A stretch of 64,000 nucleotides of DNA from Erythrobacter litoralis (GTDB lineage Bacteria > Pseudomonadota > Alphaproteobacteria > Sphingomonadales > Sphingomonadaceae). Shown in pieces: positions 7,969 to 16,047 of the stretch; the first letter of the stretch is position 1, and every line of letters starts with the position of its first letter. The translations under genes and the position numbers were made by a program. Where the stretch lies: the NCBI RefSeq assembly GCF_001719165.1, contig NZ_CP017057.1, positions 2,046,001-2,110,000 on the forward strand. Direction: 5' to 3'. The notes beneath the pieces are model-generated. The model had not been told where the DNA came from. It made no database searches and was given only the letters and a program-made list of their open reading frames with translations.

Positions 7969-9390
7969 TCACAGCGGCCATTCGTGCACCGGCAGACCAA
8001 GCCGCTGGTTTTCGAGATAGGTCGCGAGCATGCGGTGGAAATCGCCGTGCTTCTCGTAGCTCGCCAGCTGCCACGAAGCGCCTGTCCGGCCCGAGGCGAG
8101 CCGGGCGGCAATGGCGCCGAGATACTTGTCGATGAGGTCCGCATCCATGCCGAGATCGCCGAGCCCTTTCTCAGCGAGCGGCAGAAGCCGCTCGACCAGT
8201 GCGCGCGCCGACAATTCGGCTGTCTCACCCGGCCACACCAAGGAAGCATCGAGGCCCCGCTGCGCAGCCGCGTAGAAATTGCACGTAGCCGCCTCGAAGG
8301 GCATCTCGCGCATCATCCGCTCGACCTGCGGAGCGATGGCGTGGACCGCGCCGAAATAGAGCGCCGCATTCGCCATCATGTCATAGACGCTCGGGCCCGC
8401 CGCCATCACGCGCTGTTCGATCCGCACGTGCGGCCGCCCGCCCTCGCCGAAGCCAACGATCGGCCGAACCCAGCGCCAGATCGTCCCGTTGTGGAGCCTG
8501 AGGCAGGGGAAACGCTCCGAACTTTCGTCACTGCAATCGGGCAGTATCACGGGATAAAGCGCCATGTTCTCGGCGAAGATCGCGGTCGGGTCGGGCTCCA
8601 TCCAGCCATGCCCCATCGACACGCGCGGCGGGCCTTCGACCCCACCGAGCGCCTGTTCGAAAACCGGGATGCGGGTTTCCTGCCACAGCCTGCGTCCGAA
8701 CAGAAAAGGGGCATTGGCCGAAATCGCGACCAGCGGCGCGGACAGGATGACAGAGGCGTTGTAATAGAGCGAGGTCCGATCGCACGGAACCTGAAGGTGC
8801 AGTTGCAGCGAGGTCGTCGCCGCTTCTAGCATGACGTCGCGATAGGACGCGGCGAAACGCTCGCCGCCCGGCTCGGGCGACGCGATGTCGATTTCGACTG
8901 GTGCATTCCCGCGCGCCCGCTGGACCTCCCGATTGAGCGCGGCATACCGGTTCATCGGCGTCATCGCCTCGATCGAGAGATCGCCTTCGCGCAAGGTGGG
9001 CAAGGTGCCGATCGCGACGACGGTCGCCACGTCCTCATGCGCATTGGCGGCGCAGCGCCTCATGGTCGCGCTCAAATGCTCGTGCATCGCGGCAAGGTCG
9101 CGCCCGGCAAGACCGAGGACCGGCGCATTGACCTCGATATTGAACTGCGAAAGCTCGGCGACGACGTTCGGATCGCCGAGGCGTTCGAGGAAGCTCTGGT
9201 TGAAGGGAGCAGGAAAGAAATTGCGGTCGATCAGCCAGGCTTCGAGCTCGAGGCCGATGGTCGGCCCGTCATCGGCCAACTGCCCGGCGGCAAAGGCATC
9301 GCGCAGAGCCTGCGTCTCCTCGGCCAGCCGGGCTTCGAAATGCGCGAAGTCCGCGCGCGTGAACCCCCCCGCTGCGACGTCCTGTCCCAT
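7969..9390 (-). CDS. GCS2-family carboxylate-amine ligase (glutamate-cysteine ligase-like)
   Basis: A 473-residue member of the GCS2 family in the glutamine-synthetase-like superfamily. TIGLELEAWLID and SQFNIEVNAPVLG carry the acidic metal- and ATP-binding residues, followed by ATTSLQLHLQVP, LRLHNGTIWRWVRPI and HVRIEQRVMAAGPS. These enzymes use ATP to couple a carboxylate, usually glutamate, to an amine. The protein is longer than E. coli YbdK (about 370 residues) and differs from proteobacterial GshA, so it need not make gamma-glutamylcysteine. The downstream M14-type hydrolase is 13 bases away in the same transcription unit. Product unknown. Confidence 0.85.
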   Translation of the reverse strand: MGQDVAAGGFTRADFAHFEARLAEETQALRDAFAAGQLADDGPTIGLELEAWLIDRNFFPAPFNQSFLERLGDPNVVAELSQFNIEVNAPVLGLAGRDLAAMHEHLSATMRRCAANAHEDVATVVAIGTLPTLREGDLSIEAMTPMNRYAALNREVQRARGNAPVEIDIASPEPGGERFAASYRDVMLEAATTSLQLHLQVPCDRTSLYYNASVILSAPLVAISANAPFLFGRRLWQETRIPVFEQALGGVEGPPRVSMGHGWMEPDPTAIFAENMALYPVILPDCSDESSERFPCLRLHNGTIWRWVRPIVGFGEGGRPHVRIEQRVMAAGPSVYDMMANAALYFGAVHAIAPQVERMMREMPFEAATCNFYAAAQRGLDASLVWPGETAELSARALVERLLPLAEKGLGDLGMDADLIDKYLGAIAARLASGRTGASWQLASYEKHGDFHRMLATYLENQRLGLPVHEWPL

Positions 9391-9581
9391 CGATGCCCAC
9401 TCCCTCGTCCTTCCCCGCGGGCAATCCTGCGCTCTCTTGGCGCAGGTTTCCAGCCCGGACCTTGGCGTTCAGGCGGAGGGTCGCAATCGCCCCGAACTGC
9501 GCGGCAGCCAGGATCCCCGATCATCGCGAGCGAAGCGCGCGCATGAATTGCCCAGATCGAAAAAGGTAAGAACAGAGAGGA

Positions 9582-9614
9582 GAAGGTGGTGGCAGGGCTT
9601 GAATAGAACCCAGC
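9582..9614 (-). repeat. Imperfect copy of the tRNA-Tyr 3' end (candidate distal attachment site)
   Basis: Read on the minus strand this resembles the T-arm and acceptor end of tRNA-Tyr(GTA) at 15962-16047. gaaggtggtgg is identical, followed with one gap by cagggct, then a diverged T-loop, then aacc and agc. By eye about 27 of 33 positions agree and the orientation is direct. Integrases that use tRNA 3' ends leave such a repeat at the far end of the island. The mismatches mean it is a decayed or inexact site; a chance tRNA pseudogene fragment is the alternative. Confidence 0.55.
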
Positions 9615-9659
9615 CGCTAGGCGTTTGATATCCTTTGATTGTTTTTCAAGTTATCAAAC

Positions 9660-9680
9660 TTCCCCCACACCCTCCCCCAC
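9660..9680. repeat. Left C-rich repeats, candidate integrase arm-type sites
   Basis: ttcccccacacc (9660-9671) overlaps caccctcccccac (9668-9680). The first occurs inverted and exact at 15783-15794, and the second directly and exact at 15820-15832, both between the integrase gene and tRNA-Tyr. Matching short repeats just inside the two ends are the expected layout for integrase arm-binding sites. Function is inferred from position only. Confidence 0.45.
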
Positions 9681-10333
9681 GTTTGGGCGAGGCATGCCGT
9701 TTCTTACGGCTAATTGCCTCTACTATAGAAGCCCTCGCGCGCGCGAGAGAAAACTGGCTTTGCGATATATTCGGCTAGCGGCCTCGGTGTCCCCCAAGAT
9801 CGCGCCAATGATTTGCCTCGCCCCCCAGTCCCGCCGCCCCGTGTACCTATAGCTAAAAGCTTCGCGCCCGCGCGGAATGGTCAAAAAATGAATGGCTTTG
9901 CATGTCGGCTCTTGGGCCGAAGTGTCCATGCCCACTAAGGCTGAAAGTGGGTGGATTGCGGAAGGTCTGGCTTTGGAAACGAAGACCGAGAAAGCGGACG
10001 CTTTCGCGCTGAGGCCCTTTTGACTTCTAACGACCGAATTGCGGCCATTTAGGCTAGCATCGAGGCTGGTACGCTCCTGGTCATTCATTCACAGTCGCTT
10101 GCAAACCGGAATGGACACGACCTTTTCCCGGAAGACCTAGGTGACAGCACTCAGAGCCAAACATGCCCAACCTTCGGCATTAACTGCCTGCTGAAGCCCT
10201 TACGATTTAGGCGGACACACCTTGGTCAACCCACCTTTAGTAAGCAGCTGAAAAGCTGTTCGTCCGCCGTTGATGGGAAAAACGTGATTAACGAAATCTA
10301 AGTGCAAATATGGTTTTTGAGCGCTGAGGGCAC

Positions 10334-12064
10334 GTGTCGCGGAAGATACGGCGCAAAAAAGGCAGGCGGACGGAGCCAAGTGTTTTGATCAGCATCTTCT
10401 ACGATGGCGAGTGCCCTTTTTGCACGCGCTACGTGCAAATGGTGCGCCTGCAACGCGCGGACAGTGTCGAGCTCGTAAACCTGCGCGAAAACGACACTAG
10501 GCGTCGCGAATTGAACGAGGCAGGCTTCGATCTTGATGGCGGTATGGTGGTCGAGGACGGCACGGCGCGATATGGCGGGGATAAGGCGGTTGCCTATATC
10601 GCCTCACTGACCACTCCATCCGATGGATTCAACCGCTTGAACCGCTGGCTGTTTTCAAAGCCCGCTCTAGCGTCGCTGCTCTATCCAGTGTTGCGCGCAG
10701 GGCGGTGGCTCGCGCTCTTCCTGATGGGGCGCAGCTTCATTTCACAGGCTGACCGATCAAACGACGCGCGCCGAGAAATCTTCGCGACGTTCTTTGCGCT
10801 TTTCTCGGTGTTTCACTTCTTCAACTACGTGATCGAGTACCGTCTGCCGCTATCGCTGGATCTTGTCGCCCTTCTGGGCGCTGCGCTTGCGCTTTTGTTC
10901 AAACCACCTTCGTCCCGGCTCTTGTTTGTTCTGATGCTGGTCAGCACAATCAGCACCGTGGTGCAGGCCCCCGTTGCCTCAAACCACACAATCGTGCGCG
11001 CGGCGGCCTTGCTTGGCTACTGGCTCGCCTTTGCCACGGCGATGTTTCGCAACGATCCGTTCGAGAGAATCTTCGAACGGTTTGCGCCGGCGGGCTGTGC
11101 AGCCCTGCTGGTGATGTATTTCTTCGGTATCTTTCACAAGATCAACACCGACTTCCTGAACCCTGAGACGAGTTGTGCACCAACTCTCTGGGCGCTGATG
11201 CCCTGGCCGCTCTCGGCCTTTCAGGGGCCGGTGATTGATTACGCCGCGATCTATGGCACGTTCATCGTCGAAGGGCTCATCGCTTGCGCGCTTGTCATCA
11301 AGCGCTTTCGGCACTGGGGCATTGCTGCAGGGATAGGTTTTCACCTGCTACTGAGCCTGAGTTCCTATGCGATGTACATATCCTTCACGACGCTATCCAT
11401 CGCGCTTCACACTTTGTGGCTCAATGAGAGCGCCGCGAGAAAGACGCTGGCATCGCCGATCGTTCGCGCGGTTCGTGCAAAGCTTGTGCAGCCCATCTAC
11501 CGAGTGGCGGTGATTGGCCTTTGCGTGTGGCTCGCAATCTTTGCATTTGGTGGCCATTACTCGCTAGCCACTTTTGCAGTGCTACCGCTGGTCTTGCCGT
11601 TCTGCTGGGCGCTGCTTTTTCATGCCGGTGAAGTGGATGAAGGACAAAGGTCTGTCCCGGTGATCGGCGTTTTGGTGGGCGCGTTGTTCTTTGCGAATTG
11701 CGCCATGCCCTATCTCGGGCTCAAGACGGCTCAAAGCGTCAACATGTTTGCCAACCTTCGGCTTGAGGCAGGGGTCAGCAATCACCTTGTCATTTCCTCA
11801 GCGCAGCGCCCGTTCGATTATCTTCAGGATGTGGTGACGCTCAAGAAGAGCGGCACCCATCGTGTCTATTACGACGTGCTTGCGTGGCTGCAGCGTAATC
11901 CCGACCAGTCAATCAGCTTCACGCGCAATGGCGTCCTCTATGAAAACGCTAACGCACAAACGCTCGCCGAGGATATTGAGATGATCCTGCTGCCCGAATG
12001 GGTGAACAAGTGGTTTCACTTTCAGCCCGTCGATCTCAAACAACCCGAGGTCTGCGGGATCTAG
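10334..12064 (+). CDS. DCC-type thiol-disulfide oxidoreductase domain fused to an HTTM-like membrane region
   Basis: A 576-residue protein. Residues about 19-110 form a DCC/DUF393 thioredoxin-like domain with the defining IFYDGECPFC motif (Cys27, Cys30). About residues 145-460 contain many hydrophobic helices resembling HTTM (vitamin K-dependent gamma-carboxylase-like) proteins, for example YFFGIFHKINTDFLNP. The last 110 residues are soluble. DCC proteins are suspected redox proteins; HTTM proteins are poorly understood membrane proteins. The GTG start at 10334 is the longest choice; a TTG about 17 codons downstream, just before the DCC domain, is an alternative. It is the only plus-strand gene in the island, with composition less GC-rich than the flanking core, consistent with cargo. 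Function unknown. Confidence 0.75.
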   Translation: MSRKIRRKKGRRTEPSVLISIFYDGECPFCTRYVQMVRLQRADSVELVNLRENDTRRRELNEAGFDLDGGMVVEDGTARYGGDKAVAYIASLTTPSDGFNRLNRWLFSKPALASLLYPVLRAGRWLALFLMGRSFISQADRSNDARREIFATFFALFSVFHFFNYVIEYRLPLSLDLVALLGAALALLFKPPSSRLLFVLMLVSTISTVVQAPVASNHTIVRAAALLGYWLAFATAMFRNDPFERIFERFAPAGCAALLVMYFFGIFHKINTDFLNPETSCAPTLWALMPWPLSAFQGPVIDYAAIYGTFIVEGLIACALVIKRFRHWGIAAGIGFHLLLSLSSYAMYISFTTLSIALHTLWLNESAARKTLASPIVRAVRAKLVQPIYRVAVIGLCVWLAIFAFGGHYSLATFAVLPLVLPFCWALLFHAGEVDEGQRSVPVIGVLVGALFFANCAMPYLGLKTAQSVNMFANLRLEAGVSNHLVISSAQRPFDYLQDVVTLKKSGTHRVYYDVLAWLQRNPDQSISFTRNGVLYENANAQTLAEDIEMILLPEWVNKWFHFQPVDLKQPEVCGI

Positions 12065-12375
12065 GTCCCGGGTGCGGACTTGACTGGGGGTCAGCTCAAG
12101 CGATCATCTCTATGATCGAAGGAAAAGGAACACGAGCGCACGGGCCGCTCGACCTCCTCGAATCAGTCTGGTCGTTCCGGCCCCCATTTCAAGCCATTCC
12201 GTCCCAGCGCAAACCATTTCCGCTTTTGGCAATCAAAGTGCTTGGCGTTTGTGGCTGAGATGGGTCGTTAGCAGACTGACGGCTTTTGCCCATCTCACAT
12301 CGAAAGCGGACCCAATCGCTCAGCCAAAATTCCTTGCCTCGCGCGCCCGCGCCTATCGCTCCGCAAACCCGCTTT
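12065..12375. other. Island intergenic region between convergent genes
   Basis: No gene is supported in these 311 bases between the stop codons of the DCC-HTTM gene and the HUH-Rep gene. I see no strong terminator with a T-tract. Confidence 0.5.
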
Positions 12376-13176
12376 TCACCGCTTAGAAACGGGCCGCGCC
12401 AAGTTCCGGCTCATCCCGCACCGCTTGCCGATAATGCGCCCGCCGTGTTCGTGCTCAATACCGATCGCAGCCGCCGCTTCCGGCTCCGCGCCTTTCAGGA
12501 TGTAGGCCAGCACCGCGCCCAAATTCTCGGCATAGTGCGCCCCGTCCGGCTGGCCCGCGCCCCCGATTTTTTCGGTTAAAATAACCCTGCGCTGATAGGT
12601 CCGCCCGGTAATTCTCTCAATCCAGTGAATAGACCGCCGTCCGCTTATCTCGCGGCCTTCCGGCAAGTGGGCCAGGATGTGCAGATGCGAGCCTTTCCCG
12701 TCGCCGTTTTCCCTTGTCCAGATATAGGCCGTTTCGCCCCCCAGCCATTCCCGCCAGTATTTCAGAAAAGCGGTGGTCGCCCTCATCGCCTCTGCATCTG
12801 TCAGGCCAGCCGCTTCCCAATGCACCGTTATGAAACGGTTGAACGGCCTCCCGATCGCCCCTGCCCGCTTCGCCGCCGCTATCAGGCATTGCGCCTTATC
12901 GAGCGGCAATCCCTCGCTTGTCCTGTCAGCGCGGTTGCGAGCGCCGCCATGAGGAAAGAGGGACGGCACGGTGGGCGATGGTCCGCACCCTAGCGGTATA
13001 GCTATATTCGCAAGGTCCGTGCCAGCGCCCAAGTCAGCCTCGCAAACCGCTGGCAAGTCGTCCTTTTTTACGGCTTCCGAAAATTCAGCGCGCCGCTCGC
13101 CTTCGCGGGAAGCCGCTTCGCGTAAAATGCGCGTATTTACGGGACGTTGCCCGTCCTCGCGGCGCGGCATCTGCAA
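12376..13176 (-). CDS. HUH-type replication initiator/relaxase-like protein
   Basis: A 266-residue protein with three motifs of HUH endonucleases in order: motif 1-like FNRFITVHW (residues 112-120), the metal-binding H-hydrophobe-H in GSHLHILAHLP (His164, His166) and a YxxK motif in LAYILKG (Tyr225, Lys228). GKRCGMSRNL near the C-terminus resembles the conserved end of rolling-circle Rep proteins of filamentous-phage or plasmid type. Such proteins nick single-stranded DNA at an origin. It is last in the minus-strand cluster behind the AlpA regulator, so the island may excise and replicate. The N-terminal 85 residues are weakly conserved in appearance and the true start may be further in. Motif reading is by eye. 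Confidence 0.62.
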   Translation of the reverse strand: MQMPRREDGQRPVNTRILREAASREGERRAEFSEAVKKDDLPAVCEADLGAGTDLANIAIPLGCGPSPTVPSLFPHGGARNRADRTSEGLPLDKAQCLIAAAKRAGAIGRPFNRFITVHWEAAGLTDAEAMRATTAFLKYWREWLGGETAYIWTRENGDGKGSHLHILAHLPEGREISGRRSIHWIERITGRTYQRRVILTEKIGGAGQPDGAHYAENLGAVLAYILKGAEPEAAAAIGIEHEHGGRIIGKRCGMSRNLARPVSKR

Positions 13177-13274
13177 ACCCCGTCTTGTTTTTCAAGTGAA
13201 CGCTGGCGAAGGGGAAGCGGGGGCGGCTACCAATATCCGCCCCCGCCCCGTCTCGCCTGTTATGGCCTGCATTA

Positions 13275-13502
13275 TCAGGCAGAGCCGCCGCGCTGGTCGA
13301 TCGTTTCCAGCGCCGCTTTCAGTTCGTCCAGCCGCTCAAGCGGAATGGCGAAGCCTCCGCCAAAGCGCGCCGCACAGGGGCGGAGATCGCCGCCGTCCTT
13401 GGGCTGATACCACGGCCACACTTGGAGCCGCGCCTCGCCATTCCAGACAGTCGCCTCCAGCCGCCAGACGTGCCTTCCGTGCTCCTGCTCGAAGATCGTC
13501 AC
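13275..13502 (-). CDS. Small PC4/p15-like putative single-stranded-DNA-binding protein
   Basis: A 75-residue protein. The pattern WRLEATVWNGEARLQVWPWY, then a D-G-G-D-L-R-P turn, then GGGFAIPLERLDELKAALETI matches a PC4/p15 fold: beta strands with fnGe and wy, a G-x-x-x-P turn, then a final helix. PC4-like proteins bind single-stranded DNA and dimerise. The GTG start at 13502 is chosen because it overlaps the upstream stop as GTGA, implying translational coupling. Together with a nicking Rep-like protein this suggests a replication module. Remote similarity only, judged by eye. Confidence 0.55.
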   Translation of the reverse strand: MTIFEQEHGRHVWRLEATVWNGEARLQVWPWYQPKDGGDLRPCAARFGGGFAIPLERLDELKAALETIDQRGGSA

Positions 13503-13876
13503 GGCGCACCGCCTTTCAGGACGGCCACAGGGCCGCTTGAAAGCGCCTCGCTGGCACGATGGGCGGTTGCCTGTCCGGGTTCCGCCCGATCGCCACATGA
13601 TGGCTTCACGCTATCCTGTAGGCCGCTCGAAGCGCCTTTTCGGAGCAAGGCGAGCGCAGCCTCTAAGGGAAGCCTGCTCCACCCTGCCGGGAGCGCGCCC
13701 TCATCCCGGCTGGCTAGCCATTCCGGCACGGACTTAGACAAGGGCCGGACGCGCCAAAGTGAGCAATCCGTCACGGAACAGCATGACACGTGCTCGCGCC
13801 AATTGGCTCCCGCGTCACAGGCTCCGCAATCCCGGCACTTGCCGTCGATCGCCGCGCGAAGTGAGTGGCCGCTCAT
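13499..13876 (-). CDS. Small Cys-rich protein of phage/integrative-element type
   Basis: A 125-residue protein. The N-terminal 45 residues have a cysteine pattern, KCRDCGACDAGANWREHVSC then CSVTDCSLWRVRP, like small zinc-ribbon proteins found in alphaproteobacterial prophages and islands. The remainder is unremarkable. Its ATG overlaps the preceding stop (ATGA, 13876-13873) and its stop overlaps the next start (GTGA, 13502-13499), so it is embedded in a translationally coupled cluster, strong evidence that it is a real gene. The cysteines suggest metal binding; function is unknown. Confidence 0.6.
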   Translation of the reverse strand: MSGHSLRAAIDGKCRDCGACDAGANWREHVSCCSVTDCSLWRVRPLSKSVPEWLASRDEGALPAGWSRLPLEAALALLRKGASSGLQDSVKPSCGDRAEPGQATAHRASEALSSGPVAVLKGGAP

Positions 13877-14034
13877 GGCGCACCCCCTTCCCGTCCGGCT
13901 GGCTCGGGGACCGGAATAAATTGCCCCGTTACGCTTTTAGCGTTAGGCGAAGGTGTCTGGCCGCAAGCTAAGACACTAATCGAGTCGGGAACGGTGGCAG
14001 CCGTCCCGGCTCGCATTGTTTTGGCCGCCTCCAT
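13873..14034 (-). CDS. 53-residue hypothetical protein in coupled cluster
   Basis: I do not recognise this protein (begins MEAAKTMRAG, Pro-rich C-terminus). Support is architectural: its ATG lies one base after the AlpA stop (TGATATG) and its stop overlaps the next ATG as ATGA. Such tight junctions on both sides would be unlikely for a chance frame. An upstream ATG at 14061 would overlap alpA by 26 bases and is less likely. It may be a small regulator or simply a coupling frame. Confidence 0.45.
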   Translation of the reverse strand: MEAAKTMRAGTAATVPDSISVLACGQTPSPNAKSVTGQFIPVPEPAGREGGAP

Positions 14035-14035
14035 A

Positions 14036-14251
14036 TCAAGCGGCCACATCCATGCGCGCACGTTCCACCAGTCGCCCGATGCTTTCGACCGTAACCAGCC
14101 GTCGGGAGCCGATTGTCACAGTATCGAGCATTTGCTCGGAGATCAGCGCGTAGGTTTTCGTCTTGCCGATACCCAATGCCCGCGCCGCATCGGCAACGCT
14201 GCAAAGAACGGGCGAGAGATTGCCCGAGTAATCGTTAGGGGGAGATGTCAT
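14036..14251 (-). CDS. AlpA/excisionase-type helix-turn-helix protein
   Basis: A 71-residue MerR-like winged helix protein of the AlpA/excisionase type: CSVADAARALGIGKTKTYAL, then ISEQMLDTVTIGSRRLVTVE and SIGRLVERAR. AlpA proteins regulate integrase or excision genes in prophages and islands and can act as directionality factors. It heads the small-gene cluster that ends with the Rep-like gene and lies about 0.3 kb downstream of the integrase gene on the same strand. The ATG at 14251 has AAGGA upstream. It is likely the switch controlling excision or replication of the island. Confidence 0.85.
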   Translation of the reverse strand: MTSPPNDYSGNLSPVLCSVADAARALGIGKTKTYALISEQMLDTVTIGSRRLVTVESIGRLVERARMDVAA

Positions 14252-14516
14252 TACTCAATTTCCTTTCGTGTTCGCGCCACGTCCCGGCATTGGGAATCGC
14301 GCCTGTATACGGACGAGATTTCGTGTGCGCTGGCGAAAGGATATCCCGAATTGGACGTTACGCTAAGGCTTCGCGTTCTAATTTTGTTCACAGATTCAGT
14401 AAGGCTCGGCGCAAGCACCTGTTTTTAAAGATTTTTCAAGTTGGAATGTTGATGCTTCTCTCGGGTATAACCAACGTATGCAAGGCCTCTAAGACACTGT
14501 TGTCAGGCGACTTTTA

Positions 14517-14539
14517 CAGATTGTGAGGAGCGCAATCTG
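14517..14539 (-). terminator. Weak hairpin after the integrase gene
   Basis: On the minus strand a perfect 7-bp stem CAGATTG/CAATCTG with a 9-base loop lies just beyond the integrase stop, followed by TAAAAG rather than a clean T-run. It could weakly terminate integrase transcripts before the AlpA cluster. Confidence 0.3.
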
Positions 14540-14542
14540 CTT

Positions 14543-15760
14543 TCATGCTTTCGCTTGCCTTTTACGCGTAGACGGAAACCGGATTACCTCTCCCCTACCA
14601 CCGCTGCTGGCATAAGCGCCCCAAGCCTCCATAAGCTTCGCGCGCTTCTCTAGGTGCGTTGTTCGCCGATAGGCCGCTTCCGTTGCGTCCGGTGTCTTAT
14701 GCGCCTTCGCCGCGTCCACAACGGCGTTGGCAAAGGTCGTCTTGTCCGCCGCCCAATCGGTGAAGGTCGATCGAAAGCCGTGCACGTGGAACGGCTCGCC
14801 CGCATCGCGGAGCACTTTCAGCAATGTCATGTCCGACATAGGTTCGCCGCTCATGCCGGGGAAAATCAGGTTTGTGCCTGCCAGCTTGAGCGCCGCCGCC
14901 TTTCGCAGCACCGCAAGCGCCGCCTCGCTAAGCGGGACAATGTGCGCCTTGCCGCGCTTCATGTGCTCGCCGGGACACGTCCAAAGCATCGCCTCCAGGT
15001 CGATCTCGTCCCAAGTTGCGAGCCGCGTTTCTTGGCTCCGCGCCGCCGTCAGCACGGTGAACTCAAGCGCCAGCCGCCCGAATGACGGCTTTGTGCGCAA
15101 ATGCTCCAGAAATTCCGGCACGGCTTTGTAAGGCATCGCCTTGCGGTGCTGGCGCTCGCCCGTTTGCTTGGGCAGGCCATTCCCTGCTTTCAGGGAACCG
15201 CTGCTCGAAGGCGCTTCATGCGTCCGCCACCCGCGCGAATGGGCAAAGTTGAGCACGGTGCAAATCCGATGGCGGACCCTTCGCCCTGTTTCGGGCTTGT
15301 CCTGCCAGATTGGCAAGAGCGCGGCGATGATATCGCTCGCGGCAATGTCATTCGCTGGTCGATCGCCAAAGCGCGGAAAGGCATGGCGCTCTAGGCTGGC
15401 GAGCCATTGGTTCGCGTAACCCTCGCTTTTCCAGCCGCCCTTGTTCTCCGCGTGATACCGTTCCGCCGCTTGGCGAAATGTGACGGCCTCCGCCCGATCT
15501 CTCCGGCGCTCCGCGATGATATCGCGGCCTTCGATCTTGATTGCCTTCCGGGCGAGCACGGCCATGCCCCTCGCCTCTGACAGCGAAACAAGCTTGGCGC
15601 TCCCAAGGGCAATGTCCCGGCGCTTTTTCTCGTGCTGCACCCGGACATACCACGAGGCTCCGCCTCGCTTATCCACCTTTAGGAAAAGGCCGTCGCCGTC
15701 CTGATAGGAACCGGGCGCTTTCAATGCGTCCTTCACTTGCTTGGCAGTCAGCTTCCCCAT
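14543..15760 (-). CDS. Tyrosine recombinase (island integrase, DUF4102 N-terminus)
   Basis: A 405-residue integrase of the P4/CP4-57-like class. The N-terminal arm-binding region (about residues 1-85) includes GLFLKVDKRGGASWYVRV and LVSLSEARGMA; a SAM-like core-binding domain follows (about 94-190). Catalytic residues are all visible: Arg241 (LTAARSQETR), His327 and Arg330 (HVHGFRSTF), His354 and nucleophile Tyr364 (EAAYRRTTH). The start at 15760 gives the family-typical MGKLTAKQVK; upstream codons lie in intergenic-like sequence. The gene is 0.2 kb from the 3' end of tRNA-Tyr, the presumed attB target. All catalytic residues being intact, it is probably functional. Confidence 0.93.
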   Translation of the reverse strand: MGKLTAKQVKDALKAPGSYQDGDGLFLKVDKRGGASWYVRVQHEKKRRDIALGSAKLVSLSEARGMAVLARKAIKIEGRDIIAERRRDRAEAVTFRQAAERYHAENKGGWKSEGYANQWLASLERHAFPRFGDRPANDIAASDIIAALLPIWQDKPETGRRVRHRICTVLNFAHSRGWRTHEAPSSSGSLKAGNGLPKQTGERQHRKAMPYKAVPEFLEHLRTKPSFGRLALEFTVLTAARSQETRLATWDEIDLEAMLWTCPGEHMKRGKAHIVPLSEAALAVLRKAAALKLAGTNLIFPGMSGEPMSDMTLLKVLRDAGEPFHVHGFRSTFTDWAADKTTFANAVVDAAKAHKTPDATEAAYRRTTHLEKRAKLMEAWGAYASSGGRGEVIRFPSTRKRQAKA

Positions 15761-15782
15761 GTGCGTACCTCCAGCCGCTCGC

Positions 15783-15832
15783 GGTGTGGGGGAAACGGGC
15801 CGAAAATGGACCGGGCGCTCACCCTCCCCCAC
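15783..15832. repeat. Right C-rich repeats, candidate integrase arm-type sites
   Basis: ggtgtgggggaa (15783-15794) is the exact reverse complement of 9660-9671, and caccctcccccac (15820-15832) is an exact direct copy of 9668-9680. Both lie between the integrase gene and its tRNA target, where arm-type sites are expected. Confidence 0.45.
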
Positions 15833-15961
15833 ATTTTCCACCCACACTTTACCGCGAATTGGCGCGGCTGGCAATGAACGCGCGCGGACAGGGACGGGCG
15901 CATTTTCCTTGCGAAACCGCGCTTCCCGGCGATGCAGGGGGATCGTCAGCGAAGGGGAAGG

Positions 15962-16047
15962 TGGTGGACAGGGCTGGATTCGAACCAGCGTACGCTTGCG
16001 CGGGCAGATTTACAGTCTGCTGCCTTTAACCACTCGGCCACCTGTCC
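15962..16047 (-). tRNA. tRNA-Tyr(GTA)
   Basis: A class II tRNA of 86 bases including encoded CCA. The acceptor GGACAGG pairs with CCTGTCC, the discriminator is A, the D-arm contains GGCCGAGTGGTTAAAGGC, the anticodon loop ACTGTAAAT contains GTA, a long variable arm follows and the T-arm is CTGGTTCGAATCCAG. The 3' end is the probable integration target of the adjacent integrase and appears to have been kept intact by the insertion. Confidence 0.96.

Follow-up and report, generated by a model that had tools for sequence, protein, structure and literature searches.

The described systems closest to the locus analysed in this study are two kinds of defence-carrying element reported in 2025. Elements residing at tRNA genes of Escherichia coli encode an integrase, an AlpA-like excisionase, an HUH Rep and defence cargo, and have been proposed to be satellites (preprint, PMC12458937); the I55-type islands of Pseudomonas combine an integrase/AlpA pair with an inovirus Gp2-like protein and defence cargo (PMC12595487). 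For the I55-type islands with the Gp2-like protein, experiments described in the same report revealed preferential packaging by a jumbo phage (PMC12595487). Activation triggered by AlpA is described for PICMI115 (PMC10803314) and for EcCICFT073 (PMC6092414). Since the E. coli elements and the I55-type islands have already been reported, this kind of element was in print by 2025, and the original remark that an HUH Rep paired with a PC4-like protein is unusual is weakened, the integrase/AlpA/HUH-Rep layout being on record for E. coli (PMC12458937) and, with a Gp2-like protein, for Pseudomonas (PMC12595487).

The DNA analysed here is a stretch of 64,000 nucleotides (the window) from the 3.25 Mb, single-contig genome of Erythrobacter litoralis. 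It contains a mobile element of about 6.4 kb, bounded by a tRNA-Tyr gene and an imperfect copy of the 3' end of that gene, on the minus strand of which follow an integrase gene, an AlpA-like gene, a gene for a 125-aa protein, a PC4-like gene and the gene of an HUH Rep (Table 1). By sequence comparison, this element and its relatives have an integrase at tRNA 3' ends within tRNA-end repeats, a conserved gene order and exchangeable cargo.

Table 1. Features of the tRNA-Tyr element (positions within the window).
Feature	Position	Strand	Basis or remark
tRNA-Tyr(gta), integration site, 3' end borders the element	15962..16047	-	ARAGORN
Attachment repeat, tRNA-side copy	15953..15989	-	repeat D2; tRNA-side alignment with L029-L032
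GTGGGGGA-type repeats near int, candidate integrase arm sites	15785..15846	.	three matches; conserved; role inferred
Tyrosine integrase (int), 405 aa	14543..15760	-	Pfam, PHROGs; 89-93% identity in L029-L031
AlpA-like regulator/excisionase, 71 aa	14036..14251	-	HTH_17, TIGR01764 below cut-off
Cysteine-rich protein, 125 aa, no family	13499..13876	-	model scans; 75-86% identity in three relatives
PC4-like protein, about 75 aa	13275..13502	-	model and fold search; weak
HUH Rep ORF, 266 aa; codon-constrained core from about 12948 downwards	12376..13176	-	motif, fold, codon analysis
Motif TGGCACGGACCTTGCG, candidate origin, matches sigma-54 promoter consensus	13009..13024	-	motif scan
DCC1-like thiol-disulfide oxidoreductase-domain protein, 576 aa, cargo	10334..12064	+	domain model match
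GTGGGGGA-type repeats, far end, candidate integrase arm sites	9661..9681	.	two matches; conserved; role inferred
Conserved far end of the element	9580..9769	-	blastn matches L029, L031, shorter L032
Far attachment copy (imperfect tRNA 3' end)	9578..9614	-	repeat D2; same form in L029, L031, L032

Likened by layout, the E. coli elements share with the present ones the tRNA 3'-end site, direct repeats, integrase, AlpA-like excisionase, HUH rolling-circle initiator and defence cargo, but in their published description they carry large payloads and phage-like 'moron' modules, whereas the bounded elements of the present family measure 4.5-12.7 kb (PMC12458937). The I55-type islands are alike in gene content (tyrosine integrase and AlpA, both present in the window, and defence cargo, as in other members of the family) and differ in their tmRNA site, the site in the window being tRNA-Tyr, and in a region of some 18 kb that they have in common and that includes YqaJ among others (PMC12595487). 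PICMIs are also very small and are described with the order int, a gene overlapping int, alpA, a small gene and a replication gene, but they rely on a DUF3987/DUF5906 primase and a fis site, where the present family has an HUH Rep and tRNA sites (PMC10803314). Their int and alpA are found in the window (the AlpA match being weak), no DUF3987/DUF5906 primase was matched among the 7 window proteins, and the site is tRNA-Tyr instead of the fis-adjacent one that is optional in one PICMI model of the same authors (PMC10803314). Likewise, the window gave no primase match for the primase/rep module in the definition of Gram-negative PICIs (PMC6092414). Scans of the window proteins detected no AICE/IME Tra translocase or relaxase (Pfam, PHROGs, NCBIfam) and no inovirus Zot/pI morphogenesis ATPase (Pfam, PHROGs). 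AICEs such as pSAM2 also have an excisionase. They resemble the present element further in their tRNA site, integrase and rolling-circle initiator RepSA, and differ in encoding a Tra protein, none of which was found among the window proteins (PMC3218068). Charybdis elements, as presented in PMC12324425, are a different thing. On the features tested the element is thus not a PICMI, a PICI, an AICE/IME or an inovirus, and it probably works like the E. coli and I55-type elements. Its layout matches that of phage satellites (PICMI, I55-type islands).

The imperfect copy of the tRNA end, noticed originally at a distance of about 6.4 kb, is real: it recurs at the ends of the elements of three relatives and is therefore an attachment site and not a product of decay. 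The tRNA-Tyr elements of the related loci L029, L031 and L032 (the last one decayed) match the window over as much as 190 bp at the far end, and GTTCTATTCAAGCCCTG at the attachment copy is common to all four, with sequences diverging beyond it; the mismatches to the tRNA hence belong to the element's own attachment site. This far-end match was not found in the decayed L027 or in L030, whose contig ends nearby. The GTGGGGGA-type matches near int (15785-15793, 15825-15833 and 15838-15846) have counterparts at the far end, and the repeats at both ends of the element probably are arm sites of the integrase.

Among 92 genomes searched, 87 matched the tRNA-Tyr region, and the best 30 of these were fetched. 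In all 30 loci the tRNA-Tyr gene adjoins a TrmH-type gene, and in seven of them, the window included, a related integrase is present at the same tRNA-Tyr; a further locus (L060) retains a Rep remnant there. The gene located at 1.8 kb of the window follows the tRNA-Tyr gene after about 125-290 bp in L079 and L080, the sequence past the element of L031 picks up again at 6.87 kb of the window, and the nearest relative (L078) has about 5.4 kb of unmatched DNA at the corresponding place. These arrangements indicate tRNA-Tyr sites empty of the window's element; the outcome that would have refuted the original interpretation, synteny showing the element's genes to be core in relatives, did not arise. 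The proposed empty-site comparison was borne out to this extent; the exact scar of the window's insertion was not found among the relatives compared, because the region from 1.8 to 9.58 kb of the window also varies. In several relatives the genes of its part from about 6.9 to 9.58 kb, among them a 473-aa ORF (7969-9390), do not occur in the interval from tRNA-Tyr to the core genes, and the whole flank is therefore a variable region. At the same tRNA-Tyr, four relatives (L050, L055, L064 and L075) encode an integrase of 62-63% identity, and they gave no Rep match in the Rep searches, which suggests that other elements with a different replication module may use this site.

The identification of the 266-residue protein as an HUH protein, for which a structure check had been proposed, was confirmed by the fold search, and the residues H164, H166, Y225 and K228 (HUH motif and catalytic tyrosine) are invariant in 22 of 22 Rep rows. 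By motif and fold, the protein is a member of the HUH endonuclease superfamily, with predicted cleavage activity. Model PF23343 (ORF2/G2P) matches it below the cut-off, and PDB sequence searches with the Rep and its profile returned chance-level rows only. A GC hairpin directly upstream of the Rep ORF (13217-13246; 10-bp stem, loop ATATTGGTAG on the Rep strand) was considered as an origin and rejected, as only loosely similar GC hairpins occur at like places elsewhere (L084, L087, L112, L046, L035).

The original inventory of integrase, AlpA-like gene, two small genes and Rep stood, and it had missed the DCC1-like cargo gene. The latter lies in DNA of 56% G+C, compared with mostly 61-72% elsewhere in the window; a tblastn search of 27 Rep loci gave no match to its product, and the gene had no PADLOC match. 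As for the PC4-like partner, the call is weakly supported, and recognisable copies of the gene were confined to the branch of the window and near relatives. In L022, L033, L088 and their relatives, Rep is preceded by a different pair of conserved small genes (clusters c82 and c163), in place of the PC4-like and cysteine-rich genes; a comparison of the window's 125-aa and PC4-like proteins with the two small proteins of L022 gave no link.

With the window's Rep as a query, matches were obtained in 24 of 150 genomes, including its own, which holds a second copy. A 22-row Rep profile matched in 43 of 346 genomes of the order and in 6 of 398 genomes of the phylum, two of the latter belonging to the order and four being weak (E 2e-12 to 6e-5). 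A scan of named genomes gave 21 Rep loci, several of which are the same records as loci of the other genome set: Erythrobacter, Altererythrobacter, Qipengyuania, Sphingomonas, Sphingobium, Novosphingobium, Sphingomicrobium and metagenome bins, with one locus labelled Sneathiella. Altogether 82 loci (the window, L021-L047, L082-L102 and L111-L143) were considered; removal of 3 without a Rep ORF and 5 with a Rep below 180 aa left 74, exclusion of 5 duplicates left 69, and omission of 5 distant Rep-like outliers (L026, L138-L141) left 64 distinct family Reps, mostly from Sphingomonadales.

An integrase gene lies upstream on the same strand in 56 of these 64, an AlpA-like gene in 60 and both in 55. 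The predicted integrase/AlpA/HUH-Rep element in tRNA-Tyr is thereby upheld, both by this search for a conserved gene order and by the attachment repeats, the element-free tRNA-Tyr genes of relatives and the HUH fold. An exact repeat of the tRNA end of at least 13 bp was found beyond Rep in 34/64, at 4482-12731 bp. The integration sites include tRNA-Tyr, four Ser isoacceptors, Arg, Lys, Glu, Gly, Leu and Thr; at five loci labelled tRNA-Cys, this gene stands beside tRNA-Thr, which is the likelier site. The own genome harbours a second, larger element of the family (L021, G000:C1:2627200-2647100), of about 16 kb, located at tRNA-Val, bounded by 51-bp perfect repeats and with its integrase gene at the end opposite the tRNA, as well as a third Rep remnant at G000:C1:2867989.

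Gene content around Rep varies between elements, and at least 6 of the 34 bounded elements carry defence-type genes. The cargo scans covered part of the cargo, namely 20 proteins from the 34 bounded elements and 10 further proteins, for which the lists of the two scans differ in two entries, and 6 of the 20 had a PADLOC match at E 1e-10. Found were type IIG restriction-modification proteins (L025, L113 and L124; L024, L041 and L047 encode homologues of the one in L025), a DrmMI/type IIG-like protein (L125), IetS and IetA (L093), one protein matched by both the PADLOC pAgo model and Pfam Schlafen AlbA_2 (L046) and a NACHT protein (L127). The unbounded L043 encodes a cytosine methylase together with a kinase/ORC-CDC6-like protein. 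The remaining scanned cargo consists of copper-resistance, autotransporter, glycosyltransferase and polymerase genes or had no assignment.

Directly before the conserved Rep core, 44 of the 64 family Reps have a bipartite motif, TGGCACG-N4-NTGC, whose sequence and GG-N10-GC spacing equal the sigma-54 consensus used for scoring. A scan of 1.19 Mb of loci on both strands revealed 45 sites scoring 11 or 12 out of 12. Of these, 40 share the strand of Rep and fall in the 260 bp that precede the core, across 69 loci; six first-order simulations of the whole set yielded 22, 14, 11, 3, 10 and 9 sites. At a score of at least 10, the motif occurs in 44 of the 50 rows that form one Rep branch and in 0 of the 14 rows of the other (a match in L035 was excluded because it lies within the Rep core), and its distribution on the Rep tree takes 7 changes, against a shuffled mean of 17.3. 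The branch without the motif has a conserved block of its own shortly before the core, roughly CCTATTATAGGGG (L024, L025, L041, L047, L115-L117, L120, L124, L125, L131 and L137), possibly this branch's own origin or promoter.

The reading frame across the motif differs between elements (32, 11 and 1 of 44), and strong conservation is limited to its two boxes. Changes at codon positions 1/2/3 amounted to 494/370/1174 in 2866 codons of the Rep core, to 153/162/158 in 544 codons upstream of it, where a third-position excess is absent, and to 45/59/53 in 266 codons at the motif, as counted over 15 pairs with recurring loci, which are not 15 independent tests. According to these counts, protein-level constraint on rep begins at the core. 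The flat upstream values alone would suggest non-coding DNA; they were read instead as an unconstrained translated tail. In 42 elements (L127 and L136, whose core start could not be placed, being left aside), the frame from motif to core contains 1 stop in 1004 codons, compared with 59/993 and 48/992 in the other frames, and the 45 codons preceding the motif contain 22 stops per 1890, compared with 71 and 61. Most likely, then, the part of rep that contains the motif is translated but free to vary. A motif in such a position argues against a promoter of Rep and in favour of a cis-acting site, for instance a double-strand origin, and the motif is likely to be the replication origin. Initiators carrying the origin within their own gene are exemplified by phiX174 and pT181.

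The motif was at first read as Rep's promoter, and a sigma-54 promoter, at which host RpoN and an enhancer-binding protein would activate rep or an internal transcript and so tie replication to stress or infection, now appears rather unlikely. It would account for the match to the consensus, for conservation confined to the two boxes and for the flat codon positions before the core, the latter observation also standing against an origin inside rep, as does the exact sigma-54 spacing, unusual for a nick site. Furthermore, one Rep branch has a perfect 13-15-bp inverted repeat (TTGAAACTTCACCG and its complement, with exact arms in 9 distinct loci) about 70 bp upstream of the motif, a usual enhancer distance, and the host has a similar site near a putative pspF, an enhancer-binding protein gene recognised by eye. 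However, the inverted repeat is absent at that host site, and it occurs in the own genome once, within the second element; for these reasons a link to PspF and phage shock was dropped. It was the open frame across the motif, together with the start codons, that turned the reading to an intragenic origin: 19 of the 42 elements have no ATG, GTG or TTG between motif and core, and in 5 the mechanically assigned Rep start overlaps the motif, so that a transcript beginning after the motif could not make Rep there. A combination of both, in which the origin is at once a perfect sigma-54 promoter core and sigma-54 polymerase with an enhancer-binding protein gates the access of Rep, coupling replication to stress or phage infection, is regarded as very improbable.

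On balance, an integrative, rolling-circle-replicating and satellite-like element with its origin inside rep, helped most likely by a phage, is the explanation that we think rather probable. A trigger would raise AlpA, which would act as excisionase or inducer, and integrase and AlpA would then excise the element as a circle. Rep would nick one strand of this circle via Tyr225 at the motif, in which case the initiator gene carries its own origin. Rolling-circle replication would yield copies, presumably assisted in some branches by small single-strand binders, with the PC4-like protein coating single strands in the window's branch. The helper could move the DNA of the element, and on entry into a new cell the integrase would restore the tRNA. 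As regards the original prediction, we infer self-replication from the Rep, and for dependence on a helper the architecture fits, but relatives of the Rep were absent from the phage records and viral-contig collections searched.

This absence favours a different mode of transfer, namely mobilisation by conjugation, as in IMEs, or maintenance as a plasmid-like replicon in place of packaging by a phage, and HUH Reps are indeed described as serving plasmids and integrative conjugative elements such as pSAM2 (PMC3218068). Since the scans described above detected no relaxase or transfer gene among the window proteins, and plasmid searches with the Rep gave a single weak match (E 9e-3), we hold such a mode to be somewhat doubtful. 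Also rather improbable is a reading in which the family is mobile but the copy in the window has become an immobile relic. In the window, int and alpA are separated by only 291 bp, in an interval where L029-L031 keep a gene, which likewise counts against the favoured explanation; PICMI115 is reported to need the corresponding gene, iolg, for excision (PMC10803314), and decayed copies exist in L027 and L032. Nevertheless, int, alpA and rep are all open in the window's copy, both ends of the element are conserved, and only 32 of the 64 family loci have an ORF whose start lies no more than 30 nt from the int stop (17 of these ORFs overlap int by 4 nt, as in PICMIs).

In the literature searched, no description was found of this compact, mainly Sphingomonadales family and its motif, nor of any satellite of its host group. 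Small islands that carry defence genes and move by unexplained means are coming to light in several bacteria, and the present family is a compact version of them, with its ends and its initiator defined and an origin proposed. Its conserved 16-bp block either marks the site at which Rep acts or reveals sigma-54 control of the replication of a mobile element.
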